A stretch of DNA of 64,000 bases from Planctomycetia bacterium. GTDB taxonomy: Bacteria > Planctomycetota > Brocadiia > Brocadiales > Brocadiaceae. The notes under the pieces are model-generated. The model was not told where the DNA came from, searched no databases, and saw only the letters and a program-made list of their open reading frames with translations. The stretch lies in assembly GCA_015075005.1 (NCBI GenBank), contig JABTVC010000003.1, forward strand, positions 124,001 to 188,000, written 5' to 3'. This document shows positions 1,953 through 13,492 of the stretch, piece after piece; within the stretch, counting starts at the first letter, position 1, and every line of letters begins with the position of its first letter. A program made the position numbers and the translations under genes.

Positions 1953-2674
1953 ACAAAATCTTCGTCTTGTTAAATAATTTACAAAAAATGAAAATGCAAT
2001 TACCCTCACTGTAATCAAGGCCGCAATTGAAGGAAACGGCTGGCAGCAAGGAAAAGCAAAAAAGAGGCGATTTCCACATCAAAGTTTTTATGCAGTCAAG
2101 TACGTAAAACTGGCCGGAAGGCTCCACATCTTGTCCAGGTTTTATGCATGGTGGAGTACGTAAAGGCTAAGGCATGGAAAACACAGTCGGATCAGAAGAA
2201 GGAAAAAAGCACTTAAATTGATTACAAGCATTTTCCTCAATATCAATATAAGCTAAGAACCAGCAATGTGTATTACCTGATGCTGGCAGAATGAAAAAGA
2301 TATCAGGAAGGACTTTTGCACAGACACAGGAACAGTCAATACATTCATTGCTGAAGAAGGGCAGAAATTTTCTCAATATCAATCCTCTGCCTCGGCAGCG
2401 ACCTGGTTGCTGGCCTCTAAAAAGCAGAGGGGCTTTGGTCGCCTTTAGGCAACCCACACTAGCCTTTATCCCTCTTAATGGACAAAGATTGAAAGTATAC
2501 AGGAATCTTCCTACGGGAGAACTATTTACCTATTGAATTTTATTCTTGCTACAAACAGACCGCCCCTAACGAGGTCCCATTGTTTTTATGTCCCCCCATG
2601 AATTTTCAAAAAACTAAGGTGTTACAATCTAACTACTTAACCAAAAAAAGACCAAAAAAGAAAAGAGAATTGCC
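1953..2674. other. Unassigned intergenic region with gene debris
   Basis: No complete gene is recognised. A stop-free plus-strand stretch at 1978-2163 encodes about 61 residues rich in basic and aromatic residues (ending LHILSRFYAWWST) without an obvious start codon; it resembles a fragment of a real coding region of unknown family. A second open stretch at 2291-2536 has no ribosome binding site and looks accidental. The segment probably holds debris between two mobile or decayed loci. Confidence 0.3.
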
Positions 2675-2821
2675 ATGCTTTTAATTATCGCTGCTGTTCT
2701 GGTCGTATTGTGGATCCTGGGCCTGGCCACTTCCACCACTCTGAGCGGTTTCATTCACATTCTTCTGGTGATCGCCATCGTGATCATCGTGCTTAGGCTC
2801 TTTCGCGGCCGAAAATCTTAG
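2675..2821 (+). CDS. Small membrane protein, lmo0937 family
   Basis: This is a 48-residue hydrophobic protein with two membrane helices (about residues 2-19 and 25-41), a short TSTTLSGF turn and a basic C-terminus LFRGRKS. The composition and the IHILLVIAIVIIVLRL second helix match the lmo0937-type short membrane proteins, whose function is unknown and which are often stress induced. The gene starts at ATG 2675, behind a purine-rich AAAAGAGAA leader. It sits just upstream of a DUF3185 remnant and a catalase, which suggests a small stress-related cluster. The family call rests on pattern recognition alone. Confidence 0.7.
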   Translation: MLLIIAAVLVVLWILGLATSTTLSGFIHILLVIAIVIIVLRLFRGRKS

Positions 2822-2843
2822 TGGCCATTTTTTGTGGTCAGGT

Positions 2844-3072
2844 ATGAAAATCAAGGCGGAATCTTCTATGAATGAAGTAGTCTCGCTCACAATTCTTGCC
2901 GGTGGTATCCTGCTTATAATCTTCGGCATCAGTGCAATGAAGTAATTCAGTTCGGGTATTTCTCGGTTTTACCGGCTCACCTACCGACAAGGCGATATGT
3001 ATGTTGATCGGCGGCGCAGTCGCAACCGTTATCAGGCTGGTGGGACTGTCGCGTTGGTCAAAGGGAAGTTGA
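2844..3072 (+). pseudogene. DUF3185-type small membrane protein, frameshifted
   Basis: The first part encodes a hydrophobic helix, VSLTILAGGILLIIFGISAM, then reads into a stop at about 2942. In another frame downstream the sequence continues with FTGSPTDKAICMLIGGAVAT and IRLVGLSR, ending at TGA 3070-3072. Helix, then a SRFFTGSPTDK motif, then a second helix is the layout of DUF3185 proteins of about 65 residues. Joining the two parts needs a frameshift near 2940-2975. The start is either ATG 2844 or ATG 2868. Function of the family is unknown. Confidence 0.65.
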
Positions 3073-3118
3073 GGGTATTGGTCTGTTTTTATAGCTATAT
3101 ATTGAAAGGTGAAAGGAA

Positions 3119-3881
3119 ATGAGTAAACCTAAAGTCTTAACTACAGCTGCAGGCATACCTGTCTGCGATAATCAGACTTCCCTCACTGCCGGAGAGCGCG
3201 GCCCGGCATTGTTACAAGACCATCATCTTCTTGAAAAACTGGCACATTTCAACCGTGAACGTATCCCTGAGCGGGTTGTCCATGCAAAGGCAGCCGGCGC
3301 ACATGGAACTTTCGTCGTGACCCATGACATCACCAATACACAAAGGCCGGCATCTTTTCGGAAGTTGGGAAAAAAACCGAGGTGTTTGGTCGATTTTCTA
3401 CTGTGGCAGGGGAAAAAGGCTCTGCTGATACGGTTCGGGATGTCAGGGGCTTTGCATTGAAATTCTACACCGAAGAAGGCAATTGGGATATGGTTGGAAA
3501 CAATACTCCCGTGTTTTTTATACGGGATGCCATAAAATTTCCCGATTTCATCCATACCCAAAAACGTGAACCTCAAACCAACCTAAGATCAGAAACCATG
3601 ATGTGGGATTTCTGGTCGCAGGTTCCGGAATCATTGCACCAGGTAACTATCCTGTTTTCTGATCGCGGTATTCCCAAAGGGTGTCCCCTTTATGCACGGT
3701 TTCAGGAGTCATACCTACAGCTTCATCAACGCGGACAATGAACGTTTTGGGTAAAGATTTCACTTCAAGACTCAACAGGGCATCCAGAATATGACTCCGG
3801 AAAATGCGGTCCTTATCGCAGGGAAGATTCCGACTACCATACACGGCAATTATTTGAAACTATCGGGCGTGGGGATTACCC
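3119..3881 (+). pseudogene. katA: Monofunctional catalase, 5' part, split by IS
   Basis: This is the N-terminal half of a haem catalase (hydrogen peroxide to water and oxygen). It begins [20 protein letters not shown], with [14 protein letters not shown] holding the catalytic His region, then [20 protein letters not shown] and the [19 protein letters not shown] block with the active-site Asn. Three or four single-base shifts are needed to read it through: near 3330, 3690, 3755 and 3825. Each is a gain or loss in a short run of one base, or is consistent with that. Coding then reaches GRGDY at about 3865-3878, where a 2463 bp IS4-type element starts. The rest of the gene resumes at 6345. ATG 3119 follows a GAAAGGAAA ribosome binding site. 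Confidence 0.9.
3871..3881 (+). repeat. IS4 target duplication, left copy
   Basis: The 11 bases GGGGATTACCC lie directly before the left inverted end of the element. The same 11 bases recur immediately after its right end at 6345-6355, as expected for IS4-type insertion (typically about 10-13 bp). Confidence 0.9.
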
Positions 3882-3916
3882 CATACGCATCAACCCAACT
3901 TTTACTAAAAACGAGC
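3882..3916 (+). repeat. Left terminal inverted repeat of IS4-type element
   Basis: The 35 bp left end starts CATACGCATCAACCC and continues ACTTTTACTAAAAACGAGC. It pairs with the reverse complement of 6309-6344. Confidence 0.92.
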
Positions 3917-4069
3917 AGTTAGAGCAGAGAAGTAAAAAATAGTAAATTTTCAATGTAGATTAATTTTTTAAATAAACACATTTTTCAGGACACGGAGAAT
4001 TTTTGCTATAAAGTAAATATCATAGCATAAATAATTTCTTAGTAAATCAAAAATACAATACGAACCAGC

Positions 4070-5336
4070 GTGTCTCAACCAAAAGACTTAAAAAATCACA
4101 GAAAAATATATAAAGTGTTTTGATGAGGACAATTTGAATAAAATTGCCCGTGAGACATTCTTTGTACAACGTTCAACCAATAAAGTATCCGGCAGAGACT
4201 TTGTAGAACTGACGTCTGTAGAGCATTTTGATAGCGGAATAATTTCTTTGGAAGGATAAGCGATATTCAGCAGGAAGTCTCGAGTCAGATATAACCCCAC
4301 AGGCATTGAGTAAAAGATAAATAGCAAGAACGCGGTAGCATTTTAGAACGTACGTTAGAGGCCATATACAAAGAACAGGTAGCGCCTAAATTAAAGAAGA
4401 TGCCTTTAGAGATTATTAGAGCAATTTTCAAATGTATCTTCAGGATAGTACCCAAATAGAGCTCAATGAGCATTTATCGGAAGAATTCAGAGGAGTAGGC
4501 AGCAGTGCGAGTAAATCCTCTTAAAGATAGATTTATTATATGAGGCAACACGTCATATATTGAAAAAGTTTCATTACGGAAGGGATCTATCCGGATCAGA
4601 AAAATGGAGCAAGAGTATTGGATCAGATACGGGAAGGATTTGATAATCAGGGATTTAGGATATTTTGATCTTTCCGTATTAGGAGATATCGGGGAAAAGG
4701 CTTTCATTATTTAAGTCGCTTATTCAAGAGCACTAAAAGTCTATTTAAGCTCAAACCCGGTGCGGCCGTAGACCTTGCGTCATATGTAAAAAAAACAAAT
4801 TGGTAATAGGGTTTAATAGATATGAAAGTTTATCTTGGAGAAGCCAGGATATGCAGCCGCCTGATAGCGTATCGCACACCGGAGCATATAATAAATGACC
4901 GCCGACGTAAAGCCAAAAGATCAGCACAAAGAAAGGAAGACCTTGTCCCGTGAATATTTAGAATGGTTAGACTATAGCTTCTTCATCACCAATGTAAGAG
5001 ACAAAAACCCGCCGGAAATAGTAGGCACCATATACCGAATGAGGTGGCAGATAGAGTTGATATTTAAACAATGGAAGCAATTATTCCGAATTGATGTAAT
5101 GAAAGGAAGCCGTGCAGAAAGGATTCGCTGTCTCTTATACGGCCGATTGATAATGATACACATGACTCAGATATGCATTTAGCGCAGGGCATTGTCATTG
5201 TACTATGGGTCGTGAGTTAGCGCAGTAAAGCTGATTCAATGGCTACAGAAGAAAGGCCGTCTATACGCCAATCCATTATAAACAACAGGCTTTCAACATG
5301 GAAGAATTGCTAAATAGTCTCTCAGAGGACTTTTAA
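4070..5336 (+). pseudogene. IS4-family DDE transposase, degraded
   Basis: Reading across frames from GTG 4070 gives MSQPKDLKNHRKIYKVF, then IARETFFVQRSTNKVSG, LKIDLLYEATRHILKKFHYG, REYLEWLDYSFFITNV and the motif YRMRWQIELIFKQWK near 5035-5080. That motif is the Y-(2)-R-(3)-E-(6)-K signature of IS4 transposases and holds the catalytic Glu. The only long intact piece is 4895-5182. At least six frame changes or stops separate the parts, for example an extra T near 4118. It is transcribed toward the DUF4338 gene inside the same element. As given it could not make an active enzyme, but some lesions may be base-calling errors. Confidence 0.85.
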
Positions 5337-5473
5337 AACAAAAGCGACGGCGTAAAACAACAACTTTGAATTAATAAGCGGCCAGATTGAATTTTAGAAA
5401 GTTTTCATGATGACAGGAGACGACAGCCAAATCAAAAAGCATGTTCTCAAAGAGCCAAAAACTAATCAAGTCG

Positions 5474-6310
5474 GTTCGCTATTGTGGGCGTGACTTTACC
5501 AGGAAGAAATGAAAGTTATTAGTGAAATAGTCACGACAAAAGGTTTGGGCAGAACGGCTATTTCTGAGAAGATATGTGAACAATTTCTATGGCTAAAAGC
5601 AGATGGCAAGCTAAAAGATATGAGTTGCCGTGTAGCGCTGTTGCGCATGGAAAGGGACGGCTGGACAAGTTGCCGCCCCTTTGAGACGAAATGGCAATGG
5701 CAAACAGTACAAACACCGTACTATGTTAAATGATAGCAACCTTGCTCAATCTGTCCCGGAAAGATTCAAGATATAAGTTTGATATAGTAAAACCCCAAAC
5801 AATCCCGAATATGGAACGAAATGATTCATCGTTGGCATTATTTAGGATATAAAAATTGGTTGGTTACAACTTCGCTATCTGATAAATAGCCGTTCCGGCA
5901 TACTTGGATCATTAGGTTTCGGTGCATCAGCCTGGAAATGCAGGCGAGAGAAGGTTTATAGGTTGGAGTCGTCAAATTCAGGAACAAAATCTCCATCTGA
6001 TAGTAAATAATTCCAGGTTTGATTTTGCCGTGGATAAAATCGAACCCATCAAGAGTATTGGGCTTAGTGCAAAAACTTCCAAATGATTGGGGAACAACGT
6101 TACAAATATCGGCCTGTAATGCTAGAAACGTTTGTAGAAAAAACGTTTCAGGGTACTTTATAAGGCGGCAAATTGATTTGCTTAGGAGAAACGAAGGGAA
6201 GGGGAAATTGGGAGACTATTCAACCTTTTACGAAAATGTAAAATTAATAATGGTATATCTATTGCAAAGAATCCGTTCTGTATTACAACAATTGCCAATA
6301 AGTTCTTAGC
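5474..6310 (+). pseudogene. DUF4338 (DruA-like) protein, degraded IS passenger
   Basis: The start reads VRYCGRDFTRK near 5474-5510, shifts frame, and continues as an 74-codon piece (5509-5733) with AISEKICEQFLWLKADGKL and DMSCRVALLRMERDG. Further fragments follow in different frames: a SAWKCQAREKF-like stretch near 5930, GWSRQIQEQNLHLIVNNSRF near 5963-6020, LGLVQKLPNDW, and TKGRGKLGDYSTFYENVK near 6190-6240. This motif order is that of DUF4338, the family that includes DruA of the Druantia defence system and many proteins carried by insertion sequences. Here it lies within the inverted ends of an IS4-type element and no other Druantia gene is nearby, so I read it as a transposon accessory gene. 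Confidence 0.72.
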
Positions 6311-6344
6311 TCGTTTTTTAGTAAAAGCTAGGTTGATGCGTATG
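6309..6344 (-). repeat. Right terminal inverted repeat of IS4-type element
   Basis: The 36 bp right end is the near-perfect inverse of 3882-3916, ending GGTTGATGCGTATG. It is followed at once by the second copy of the 11 bp target duplication. Confidence 0.92.
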
Positions 6345-6355
6345 GGGGATTACCC
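6345..6355 (+). repeat. IS4 target duplication, right copy
   Basis: GGGGATTACCC follows the right inverted end and repeats 3871-3881 exactly. Here it encodes catalase residues G-D-Y-P. Confidence 0.9.
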
Positions 6356-7037
6356 TAAATGGACATTTTATGTTCAGATAATGCCGGAAGCTGAAGCGGA
6401 AACGTATCGGTGGAATCCGTTTGATTTAACCAAGGTCTGGCCGCATGGAGACTATCCTTTGATCGAGGCAGGAGTATTGGAGATGAACCGTAATCCCTCG
6501 AACTATTTTGCCGAAGTCGAGCAGTCCGCCTTTTCTCCGGCTCACGTTGTTCCCGGTATCTCTTTTTCTCCCTGTAAAATGCTCCAGGGACGTATTTTTG
6601 CCTATGCAGATGCACAGCGGTATCGGCTGGGCGTGAACTTTGAGCGGCTGCCGATAAACAGTCCGCTTGCCACGGCAGCAAACACCTATCAGCGGGACGG
6701 CTCAATGAGATTCGATGACAACGGCGGGGCTTCGGTAAATTATGAGCCGAACAGTTTCGGAGGACCCAAAGCAGACCAGGCGTATAATGAGCCGCCGCTG
6801 AAAATTTCAGGTGACGCAAATCGCTATGAACAGAAAAGAGGCGTTGACGATGATTTTGTCCAGCCCGGGAATCTCTTCCGGCTGATGCCGCCTGAAGAAC
6901 GGAAGCGACTCATTGAAAACATTGTATCAAGCCTTAAAAAAGTGCCGAAAGATATCCAGGAAAGGATGGCTCCGTATTTTTACAAAGCAGATAAGGTTTA
7001 TGGAGAGGGTGTTGCAAAGGGACTAGGACTTGCATAA
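6345..7037 (+). pseudogene. katA: Monofunctional catalase, 3' part
   Basis: This is the C-terminal half of the catalase begun at 3119, in one open frame of about 230 codons. It runs from GDYPKWTFYVQIMPEAEA through FDLTKVWPHGDYPLIEAGV and HVVPGISFSPCKMLQGR to the haem-ligand region FAYADAQRYRLGVNFERLPIN, which contains the proximal Tyr motif R-x-x-x-Y, and the C-terminal helical part ending VYGEGVAKGLGLA. It is undamaged in contrast to the 5' part. A short unrelated ATG at 6333 lies in the IS end and is not its start. The whole gene would encode a clade 3, small-subunit catalase if the IS were removed. Confidence 0.92.
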
Positions 7038-8515: not shown

Positions 8516-9419
8516 ATGGAATTTAAAGATTATTATCAGATCCTCGGTGTTGCCGATACCGCCCCACAGGATGAAATTAAACGAGTCTACCGGCAACTTG
8601 CTCGCAAGTATCACCCCGACGTCAGTAAAGAACCCAAGGCAGACGCGCGTTTCAAGGAAGTCACAGAGGCTTATGAGGCATTAAGTGACAAAGAAAAACG
8701 TGTTGCCTATGACCATCTTCGTCAGTCAGGTTACCATCAAGGCGATGAGTTCAAACCCCACCGGATTGGCAAGCGCAACAGGGGTTTAGCGACAGGGTTT
8801 TCAGCTGAAGATAGGGCCGACTTCAGTGACTTCTTCAGTAGTATTTTGGTGGAGGATTTAAAACAGGACAGGGCCGTCGCCGGCAAAATTTCTACAGTTC
8901 AGATGACCTACAGCGGCAGACATTTACGCCGAAATCACCTTGCAATTAGTAGATGCTTACCAGGGAGGAGAAGCGTATCGTCTACCAGAGCCGGAAGTTC
9001 AGCATAATGGTCAGATCGTCATGAAGAAGCACACCATTGATGTTTCTATTCCGGCAGGGGTTGTTGACAGGCAGCATTTGCGACTGAAAGGATTAGGCAG
9101 AGCGCGTGACAGTTCAGGGAAGGCCATCTTTACTTAGAGATCCATATTGCTCCCCATCCATTGTACGTCCCTCGACGGCAAAACGTCACCAAGAAAATGC
9201 CGGTTACTCCATGGGAGCAGCACGGCGCAACGATAGACACTACAACGCTGGGCGGTAAAGTTAAACTTACCATTCCGCCAGGCAGCCAGCAGCACAAAAC
9301 TTCGCTTGAAAGGACGTGGTTTGCCCGGTAATCCCGCGGGCGACCAATTTGTTATTCTTCAATTGGTGAATCCTGCCACACTGGATCAAGCGACCGAAAA
9401 GTATTATCAACAACTTTGA
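8516..9419 (+). pseudogene. cbpA: CbpA-type DnaJ co-chaperone, frameshifted
   Basis: The gene encodes a DnaJ-class co-chaperone that stimulates DnaK ATPase. The J domain is intact at residues 3-70: [20 protein letters not shown], the HPD motif in KYHPDV, and [15 protein letters not shown]. The sequence changes frame near 8910, continues as [17 protein letters not shown] and HTIDVSIPAGVVDRQHLRLK, shifts again near 9115 to LYLEIHIAPHPLYV, and ends QYYQQL-stop at 9417-9419. This is the CbpA layout: J domain, short linker, two substrate-binding domains, and no zinc-finger domain. Three shifts are required. A cbpM gene follows 41 bases downstream, as usual for this pair. Confidence 0.85.
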
Positions 9420-10170: not shown

Positions 10171-12082
<1,912 letters not shown>

Positions 12083-12090
<8 letters not shown>

Positions 12091-12397
12091 GTTACCGGAG
12101 AAAAATCATCACAATTCCCGACACAAGTTTGTTGAAGAGATAGGAAAAAAAGAGGCCCGCAAAATCCGAAGAAGACGCGAAAAGGGTATTCGAAGTATAT
12201 GGTATGGCATGGGTATGTCGGGAATTATCGGGTGGTCGGTAGCAATTCCGACAATAATTGGCATAACGGTTGGGATCTGGATTGACAGGCGGTGGCCGGG
12301 ACATTTGTCGTGGACACTCATGTTGCTTATGGCAGGAATTGCGCTTGGTTGTCTAAACGCCTGGTACTGGATAAAAACGGAGATCAAGAATGAATGA
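12083..12397 (+). CDS. atpQ: AtpQ/AtpZ-type ATPase accessory membrane protein
   Basis: This 104-residue protein has a charged N-terminus (KKEARKIRRRREKGIRSIWY) and two membrane helices (about residues 42-62 and 70-95) separated by IDRRWPGHLSW. This is the AtpZ/AtpI-like layout of the AtpQ subunit found only in N-type ATPase operons. It may assist ring assembly or ion or magnesium supply, which is inferred from the family. ATG 12083 overlaps the atpC stop. Confidence 0.85.
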
Positions 12398-12463
12398 ATC
12401 CGGTTTGTCGTTTACTTTACAACGATTTTTATCCCATGCCAATAATGGGACAGGAGGGATAAT

Positions 12464-12745
12464 GTGACGAGAGGAATCCTGTTTTTCATGGTTCCATTCG
12501 TTGTGGGAATGGCATTGGGCATTCTCAATTATGCCGGTCTTTGGTGCACGGCACAGAACCTTTCTGCAATAAAGCGCCCTATGCTACTGATCCTGGTAAG
12601 TTTTGTAGTGCGGATGGGTATTACCTTGTTTGCCTTCTACCTCGTTATGGACGGAAGGTGGGAAAAACTGGTTGCGTGTACCGTAGGCTTTTTCCTTGTA
12701 CGGCACACGCTGGTTCGGCGTTTACGGCCGGAAAAGCACATATGA
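12464..12745 (+). CDS. atpR: N-ATPase AtpR subunit
   Basis: This 93-residue protein has three predicted membrane helices (about residues 4-24, 37-62 and 68-82). It starts at GTG 12464 behind ACAGGAGGGATAAT. The motif FVVGMALGILNYAGLW with conserved Asn, and VVRMGITLFAFYLVMDGRWE with an intramembrane Arg, match AtpR, the subunit that defines N-ATPase operons together with AtpQ and is proposed to interact with the c ring. The gap of 66 bases after atpQ contains a short accidental frame. Confidence 0.85.
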   Translation: MTRGILFFMVPFVVGMALGILNYAGLWCTAQNLSAIKRPMLLILVSFVVRMGITLFAFYLVMDGRWEKLVACTVGFFLVRHTLVRRLRPEKHI

Positions 12746-12772
12746 GACCATCTGAAAAAGGGAGGCAAAAGA

Positions 12773-13492
12773 TTGAAAATAACCCCTGATGCGATAATAT
12801 TTTTAAAAATTGGCCCGGTGTCTCTTAATGCAACGATTGTGTTTACATGGGTTGTGATGGTTCTGCTGGTTGTCGGCTCCTGGCTGATAACAAGGAAATT
12901 GGCAACGGGAACGACATTATCCCACTGGCAAAACATGCTTGAAGTACTGGTCGTTGGGATGCAAGATCAGATTCGTGCCATTAGCCGTCAGGAACCTTCT
13001 CCGTACCTTCCTTTCGTGGGAACCCTGTTCCTTTTTATTGCGGTCTCGATTATCCTGAGTATTGTACCCGGATACCAGCCACCCACGGGTTCTTTATCTA
13101 CAACTGCAGCACTTGCAATTTGTGTTTTCATTGCAGTCCCCATTTTTGGGATCGCAAAAAAGGGCTTTGTAGGATACCTAAAATACTTTTTTAGACCAAC
13201 ACCTTTCATGCTCCCATTCAATATCCTGGGAGAAATCTCCCGTACTATTGCATTGGCAGTTCGGCTCTTTGGTAATGTGATGAGTGGGACCATTATTGCT
13301 GGTATCCTGCTTTCCATCGCCCCCCTGCTTTTTCCTATTGTTATGGTAGCATTGGGGCTGCTTACGGGATTGATTCAGGCATATATATTTGCTATTCTAT
13401 CAATGGTTTATATTGCATCAGCGACCCGCGTACATGACGAAAGGGAGCAAAAATACGAGAACAAAAAGAAAGGAGTGGAACAGTATGGATAA
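12773..13492 (+). CDS. atpB: N-type ATP synthase a subunit
   Basis: This is the 239-residue stator channel subunit. It begins at TTG 12773 behind GGGAGGCAAAAGA. Helices include VFTWVVMVLLVVGSWLI near the start and LPFVGTLFLFIAVSIILSIV. The crucial Arg lies in ISRTIALAVRLFGNVMSGTI, and the final helices read LFPIVMVALGLLTGLIQAYI and FAILSMVYIASA. This part carries ions past the c ring. It overlaps atpE by 8 bases. Intact. Confidence 0.93.
   Translation: MKITPDAIIFLKIGPVSLNATIVFTWVVMVLLVVGSWLITRKLATGTTLSHWQNMLEVLVVGMQDQIRAISRQEPSPYLPFVGTLFLFIAVSIILSIVPGYQPPTGSLSTTAALAICVFIAVPIFGIAKKGFVGYLKYFFRPTPFMLPFNILGEISRTIALAVRLFGNVMSGTIIAGILLSIAPLLFPIVMVALGLLTGLIQAYIFAILSMVYIASATRVHDEREQKYENKKKGVEQYG

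Follow-up and report, generated by a model that had tools for sequence, protein, structure and literature searches.

Insertion sequences (IS) are usually taken to need a transposase alone, and those of the IS4 family move by cut-and-paste. DruA is a defence protein that is accompanied by the genes DruB-E in Druantia type I and whose activity is, to our knowledge, unclear. Both subjects meet in an IS4-family element that interrupts a catalase gene of a Planctomycetia bacterium and carries, behind its transposase gene, a second gene of the DruA family. The element lies in a stretch of 64,000 nucleotides (contig JABTVC010000003.1 of assembly GCA_015075005.1, positions 124,001 to 188,000 of the forward strand), called the window in the following. 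The closest described elements are those of the IS231 subgroup, for which PMC2266710 tabulates the ends CAT-------AA--TAA and a target duplication of 10-12 bp and mentions passenger genes. Mom, which protects the DNA of phage Mu, is presented as a GNAT-superfamily enzyme acting on adenine in PMC7824862. In PMC10853773 and PMC12774648, DUF4338 is called a GNAT domain and DruA-like structures are noted in Synechococcus phages, respectively.

The features of the locus are listed below; L, G and C numbers denote loci, genomes and contigs.

3119..3881, + strand: catalase gene, 5' part through the first direct repeat, with frameshifts in the assembly
3871..3881, + strand: left target-site duplication GGGGATTACCC, present as a single copy in the intact gene of the relative G020
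3882..6344, + strand: insertion sequence of the IS231 type (IS4 family) with an assembled length of 2463 bp
3882..3916, + strand: left terminal inverted repeat with the tip CATACGCATCAACC
4012..5362, + strand: IS4-family DDE transposase gene with several frameshifts as assembled, located by tblastn with the 458-aa frame of L002, L137 and L141
5392..6306, + strand: second gene of the DruA family (PF14236), Mom-like and broken in the assembly, located by tblastn with L003, L137 and L141
6309..6344, - strand: right terminal inverted repeat
6345..6355, + strand: right target-site duplication GGGGATTACCC
6345..7037, + strand: 3' part of the catalase gene, open

Two exact 11-bp copies of GGGGATTACCC flank the insert, and no third copy occurs on either strand of the 64-kb window. 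The element ends were detected as an inverted pair of 41 nt with 88 % match, a span that includes the direct repeat; the first 35 and the last 36 bases of the element match to 92 % (BLAST), and an ungapped end-to-end comparison gave 28 matching bases out of 36. The flanks joined over a single repeat copy read GRGDYPKWTF. The intact catalase of G020 reads GSGDYPKWTF at this place and has GGGGATTACCC once, at the break point (L130:8846-8856). A sequence-only reading of the window had described an IS4-type element of 2463 bp in a catalase gene, with inverted ends of 35-36 bp and exact direct repeats, and had noted that deletion of the insert together with one repeat copy restores GRGDYPKWTF. This description was borne out at 3882-6344, and two of the checks it had proposed, for an uninterrupted catalase in relatives and for further copies in the same genome, turned out positive. 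The insertion and the anatomy of the element are practically certain, and the disruption of the catalase gene is an ordinary, routine IS insertion. An assembly chimera that is absent from any real cell may be imagined, since the element is repeated in a genome assembled into 22 contigs, but the 11-bp duplication is exact and occurs once in the intact gene of the relative, exactly at the break point, which makes a chimera extremely improbable. A misassembly of the insertion was rejected on account of this exact duplication and of the uninterrupted site in G020.

The host genome (3.89 Mb, 22 contigs) contains six full-length copies of the element including the window copy, and a 93-bp remnant of an end. 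The other five copies are 2503-2539 bp long and match the window copy to 92-95 %. Exact target duplications were found for three of the six (11 bp for the window copy L001, 10 bp each for L003 and L005), and an element in G020 has AGGTACGCCT on both sides (by eye). With the best five candidates per genome scored, the DNA of the element had a match in 9 of 59 genomes, host included, and no match in any of the 10 other genomes of the same genus.

The transposase was assigned from family models. The open transposase frame of L002 (458 codons) matches NCBIfam transpos_IS4_1 with 6.8e-69, over the cut-off, and the window piece 4895-5179 matches Pfam DDE_Tnp_1 with 1.2e-10. D149, D220 and E357 of the L002 frame, acidic residues assigned by motif, together with its Y-2-R-3-E-6-K motif, YRMRWQIELIFKQWK, agree with the IS231 pattern D(60-110)D(100-150)E and Y(2)R(3)E(6)K. 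By eye, all 8 fixed IS231 positions are present at the left ends of five of the six copies and 7 of 8 at the left end of the window copy; the right ends have 7 of 8 in all six copies. The duplications of 11 bp (window copy) and 10 bp (L003, L005) fall within the IS231 range. The window target GGGGATTACCC fits GGG-N5-CCC, the pattern of IS231A; the targets of the remaining copies do not all fit. By its ends, duplication length and transposase motifs, the element fits the IS231 subgroup of the IS4 family. In comparison with PMC2266710, it shares the CAT ends with AA at positions 11-12 and TAA at 15-17, the 10-12-bp duplication, the YREK signature, the DDE spacing, the size range and the occurrence of passenger genes. 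Passenger DNA of IS231 elements is located between the left end and the transposase gene, a position that is a description and no criterion in PMC2266710, whereas the extra gene follows the transposase gene on its 3' side in the window, L137 and L141. The same source has IS231 almost exclusively in the Bacillus cereus group, whereas the present host looks like an anammox bacterium. Its genome has two matches to the hydrazine synthase alpha family PF18582, which is present in 26 of 39 genomes searched, host included.

The sequence-only reading had the boundaries and the duplication right and missed the second gene of the element. By comparison with intact relatives, this gene starts at about 5410 (by eye). 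Its open frame in L003 (318 codons) matches Pfam PF14236 DruA with 1.4e-38 over positions 6-234 of 297. G020 and G039 have intact elements, in which the ATG of the second gene overlaps the TGA of the transposase gene as ATGA, a usual sign of translational coupling. Between these two elements, the ratio of nonsynonymous to synonymous substitution rates (dN/dS) was 0.109 for the second gene and 0.143 for the transposase gene, rough values with a saturated dS; with ratios of about 0.11 and 0.14, both genes therefore look selected. The second gene belongs to the same Pfam family as DruA of Druantia type I (PF14236, DUF4338), but its protein is weak against the PADLOC DruA models (L003 4.2e-4, L137 1.8e-4, L142 5.5e-6, no match for L145), and only two genes were recognised in the element. 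DruB-E are not among these two genes within the inverted repeats; the search for them did not extend to the remaining genome. A PADLOC match to JukA (6.4e-4) falls in the N-terminal part of the second protein of L003:1536-2492.

DruA-family matches were found in 25 of 59 relatives and in 20 of 195 genomes of a phylum sample, the host included in both, and in none of 14 control genomes. Thirty loci from the relatives and 14 new ones from the phylum sample were examined; they are top-scoring loci and no random sample, and several are copies within one genome. Transposase sequence was fused or located within ~1.5 kb at 23 of the first 30 loci (7 IS231-like, 9 Tn5-type, 7 IS66), where L143, L153, L159 and L160 are partial and the IS66 matches of L146 and L154 are under the model cut-off; no transposase was seen at L136, L138, L152, L155, L156, L157 and L158. 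The phylum sample had a transposase at 12 of the 14 loci, counting L204 (IS701) and L205 (IS66) under the cut-off and a short match at L207, and none at L208 and L210. Tn5-type elements have the DruA domain as N-terminal part of a single long frame (L142, L147, L149), ISAs1 elements have it fused to the transposase (L180, L206, L209, L216), and at some IS66 loci the DruA stop-to-stop frame overlaps the transposase frame (L145, L214, L219). In L214, L215, L221 and L222, common inverted ends enclose both DruA and transposase (by eye). Four DruA queries against plasmids returned the same two Thiodictyon records every time. A DruA-ISAs1 transposase fusion on a Thiodictyon plasmid (L180:3926-5260) is a pairing outside the phylum of the host.

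A tree was calculated for 55 DruA domains, that is 59 hand-picked from 76 domains found, minus 4 identical ones. It has 11 changes of the transposase label against a shuffled mean of 33.4, thus the DruA tree follows the transposase type. The five rows labelled IS231 form one clade (100/100) adjoining a two-row IS66 group. Short or broken pieces (e.g., L136, L140, L144, L153, L156, L157, L160, L183, L197, L198, L210) and near or exact duplicates were left out, and some long branches are unsure in their placement. The labels are uneven: L138 is IS231 by DruA similarity alone, L143 and L207 are Tn5 from short matches at contig ends, and L146, L154 and L205 are IS66 on sub-cut-off scores. In the open-access literature, covered mostly by titles and the beginnings of abstracts, no report of a transposase-coupled DruA or Mom was found; subscription journals and ISfinder were not covered.

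The DruA-like gene may serve the host, e.g., in anti-phage defence, and merely ride on the transposon as cargo. The family is named after the Druantia defence protein (PF14236), IS231 elements are known to bear passenger genes (PMC2266710), and in the relative G016 a strong match to defence-type DruA (PADLOC, 2e-78) lies beside a HerA-like gene (L136 on C75). The latter protein is distant from the element-borne group. The element-borne proteins, however, are weak against the defence DruA models (L003, L137, L142) or do not match them (L145), in-frame fusions to Tn5-type and ISAs1 transposases and a frame overlap in some IS66 loci occur, and the DruA-like gene is the only extra gene seen in the element. 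A role as host-serving cargo is in our view quite improbable.

A relation to Mom became visible in profile comparisons (hhalign). The alignments contained DruA of the relatives' loci (A1, 13 rows), viral-contig DruA (A2, 10 rows), Mom of nine phages including Mu (A3) and transposases as control (A4). Compared with Mom, A1 reached 96.6 % over 165 columns, with 18 % identity in the aligned columns, and A2 96.5 %; the controls with the three-row A4 gave 0.1 % for the Mom profile and 0.6 % for A1. His-Tyr and Y-x-A-x-N are invariant in all 13 rows of A1 and all nine rows of A3 and lie inside the aligned stretch. Besides the profile match and these shared residues, there are differences: the element-borne proteins have an extra N-terminal region, are carried by IS elements, and their activity is only predicted. 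A GNAT fold of the second protein may be assumed from the Mom profile match and the domain description in PMC10853773. Among the scanned DruA-family proteins, only the viral L185 passed the Pfam Mom cut-off (27.2 vs 27.1 bits, 3.6e-6); it also matches phrog_1384, "Mom-like DNA modification protein", with 9.7e-8. The DruA-family proteins of viral contigs (L184-L196) have about 250-270 residues, some of them weakly matching Mom models, and no transposase match was present at the 12 viral-contig loci checked. In a viral contig of 42.7 kb, one DruA-type gene occurs twice, close to either end and oppositely oriented (L181, L182). A search of solved structures with A1 gave chance-level matches only (best E 0.41), and a search of a phage collection with the viral DruA L188 found nothing.

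The invariant residues also concern the proposal that the DruA-like protein takes part in the transposition complex as a non-catalytic subunit, which binds DNA or pairs the ends. Such a subunit would be in line with the fusion to the N terminus of the Tn5-type transposase, ahead of the DNA-binding domain (L142, L147, L149), but A1 keeps without variation the His-Tyr and Y-x-A-x-N that the Mom alignment has too, an unusual feature if the protein were a pure scaffold. We consider this proposal unlikely.

We favour the explanation that a two-gene operon transposon of the IS231-type within the IS4 family, encoding a DDE transposase followed by a DruA/Mom-like protein, inserted into the catalase gene under duplication of 11 bp. 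According to the mechanism of the IS4 family, the transposase would excise the element and insert it at a new site, thereby duplicating 10-11 bp. The second protein would, judged from the coupling of the genes, probably be co-produced with the transposase and may act on the same DNA. By analogy to Mom, its most likely mode of action would be the acylation of a base, located at the ends, close to them or on the element after excision; such a mark would protect the intermediate or adjust the reaction, in the way Mom protects the DNA of Mu. The anatomy and a functional coupling of the second protein to transposition are, taken jointly, likely; the functional coupling by itself appears fairly probable. 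A function as base modification enzyme is possible and somewhat doubtful. Still more tentatively, a Mom-like acyltransferase module may have been adopted by at least four transposase groups from three DDE families as a working part of transposition that marks the transposon DNA. These groups would be IS231-type IS4, Tn5-type IS4, IS66 and ISAs1, with a weaker IS701-like case, and the module would be coupled in some and fused in others.

Several observations weigh against this explanation. Each copy in the host genome has at least one gene that is not open, and a present activity of the element is therefore only putative. The target duplications of L004 and L006 each contain a single mismatch, and L002 shows no duplication (by eye). 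PADLOC matches the second protein of L003 equally weakly to DruA (4.2e-4) and JukA (6.4e-4). The same protein was not listed for Pfam Mom (PF25680) and had only 0.011 for phrog_1384, and the control alignment A4 had only three rows. Finally, 9 of the 44 examined DruA loci were without a transposase.

The element had been called complete by the sequence-only reading. This holds for its ends, not for its genes: neither gene has a long open frame in the window copy, and the frameshifts in both genes and in the 5' half of the catalase gene had been overlooked. In other copies, the transposase gene is open in L002 and the second gene in L003, where the frame seems to hold a short shifted stretch (by eye). 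Private changes of the window copy amount to 34 substitutions and 31 indel events, of which 18 are in homopolymers; private substitutions/indels of the other copies range from 0/2 (L002) to 50/30 (L006). Another repeat of the window differs from its copy by 57 gap openings and 48 mismatches. A pattern this rich in indels points to errors left uncorrected in the assembly rather than to decay. On this view, the frameshifts of the element and of the 5' half of the catalase gene would be errors of the assembly consensus, worst in repeats, and the element may be active. We hold this to be rather probable, in view of nearly as many private indels as private substitutions (31 and 34) with their frequent location in homopolymers, the similar indel pattern in the second repeat, the abundance of long open frames in other parts of the window and the excess of third-position substitutions that is kept in both catalase halves. 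This excess, 15/8/42 substitutions relative to G020 at the three codon positions in the 5' half and 14/8/37 in the 3' half, also excludes a long neutral decay of the catalase gene. Few indels are found in the flanks, and the indels of the element therefore did not arise after the insertion; they are either assembly errors or came with an already broken copy that was moved in trans. A decayed copy mobilised in trans would look alike, however, and consensus errors do not readily account for the private substitutions (34 in the window copy, 50 in L006) or for the broken 5' half of the catalase gene and the broken DnaJ gene, which are outside the repeats. Assembly errors would concern the frameshifts only, and they can hold together with the explanation favoured above.

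The catalase gene itself is recognised in both parts, with Pfam PF00199 Catalase matches at 3119-3457 (3.6e-30) and 3382-3738 (3.2e-57), two overlapping frames, and at 6342-7034 (6.8e-62); the 3' part also matches Pfam Catalase-rel (4.5e-22). The homologous gene of G020 is open over 481 codons (L130:8093-9538). Compared with L130, the 5' part has ~92 % DNA identity and, in its coding part, 3 to 5 single-base indels depending on the aligner; the 3' part has zero indels over 693 bases. Removal of the insert would not restore an open catalase gene as assembled, because of these further indels in the 5' half. The catalase is closest to that of G020 (90 % identity), followed by 52-54 % in the six of 10 other same-genus genomes with a match; the other four had no match. 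The insertion had been read as the loss of a main peroxide-removing enzyme. The catalase is indeed the only match in the host genome (query: 3' part), but the physiological weight was overstated: the host genome still has two open frames belonging to the cytochrome c peroxidase/MauG family, as well as a weak match to peroxiredoxin, and 4 of 10 same-genus genomes are without a catalase match. An open frame on C12, read as superoxide dismutase, remains as well. The catalase loss, if real, is probably tolerable for the lineage.

Upstream of the catalase gene, two segments of the window (2665-3099) are joined at 2847-2853 that match segments of G020 located 1.56 kb apart; the G020 stretch between them holds most of a gene read from its translation as superoxide dismutase. 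A genome-wide loss of superoxide dismutase was rejected because the open frame on C12 is 81 % identical. A second broken repeat element is located at 642-1952, with a weak UPF0236 match under the cut-off; a long copy exists at G000:C1:742248-743957, fragments occur elsewhere, and the copies differ mainly by small indels. Downstream, a DnaJ-domain gene (8516-9137, Pfam 2.2e-24) has an early stop and an apparent continuation in an overlapping frame (by eye). ATP synthase genes, for an alpha/beta-type subunit and the A chain, are located at 10296-13489.

The overlooked second gene makes the element a new IS variant and a lead on a putative recurrent partnership of transposases with a Mom/DruA-like protein. 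This recurrent pairing is the interesting part of the locus; the function of the partner is inferred. If the adoption of the module is true, DruA with its role in defence would represent a single branch of a family that is commonest on transposons, at least in this lineage. The recurring coupled or fused enzyme-like partner would then point to base modification or another acylation in transposition, and the link to Mom would give DruA a testable hypothesis.

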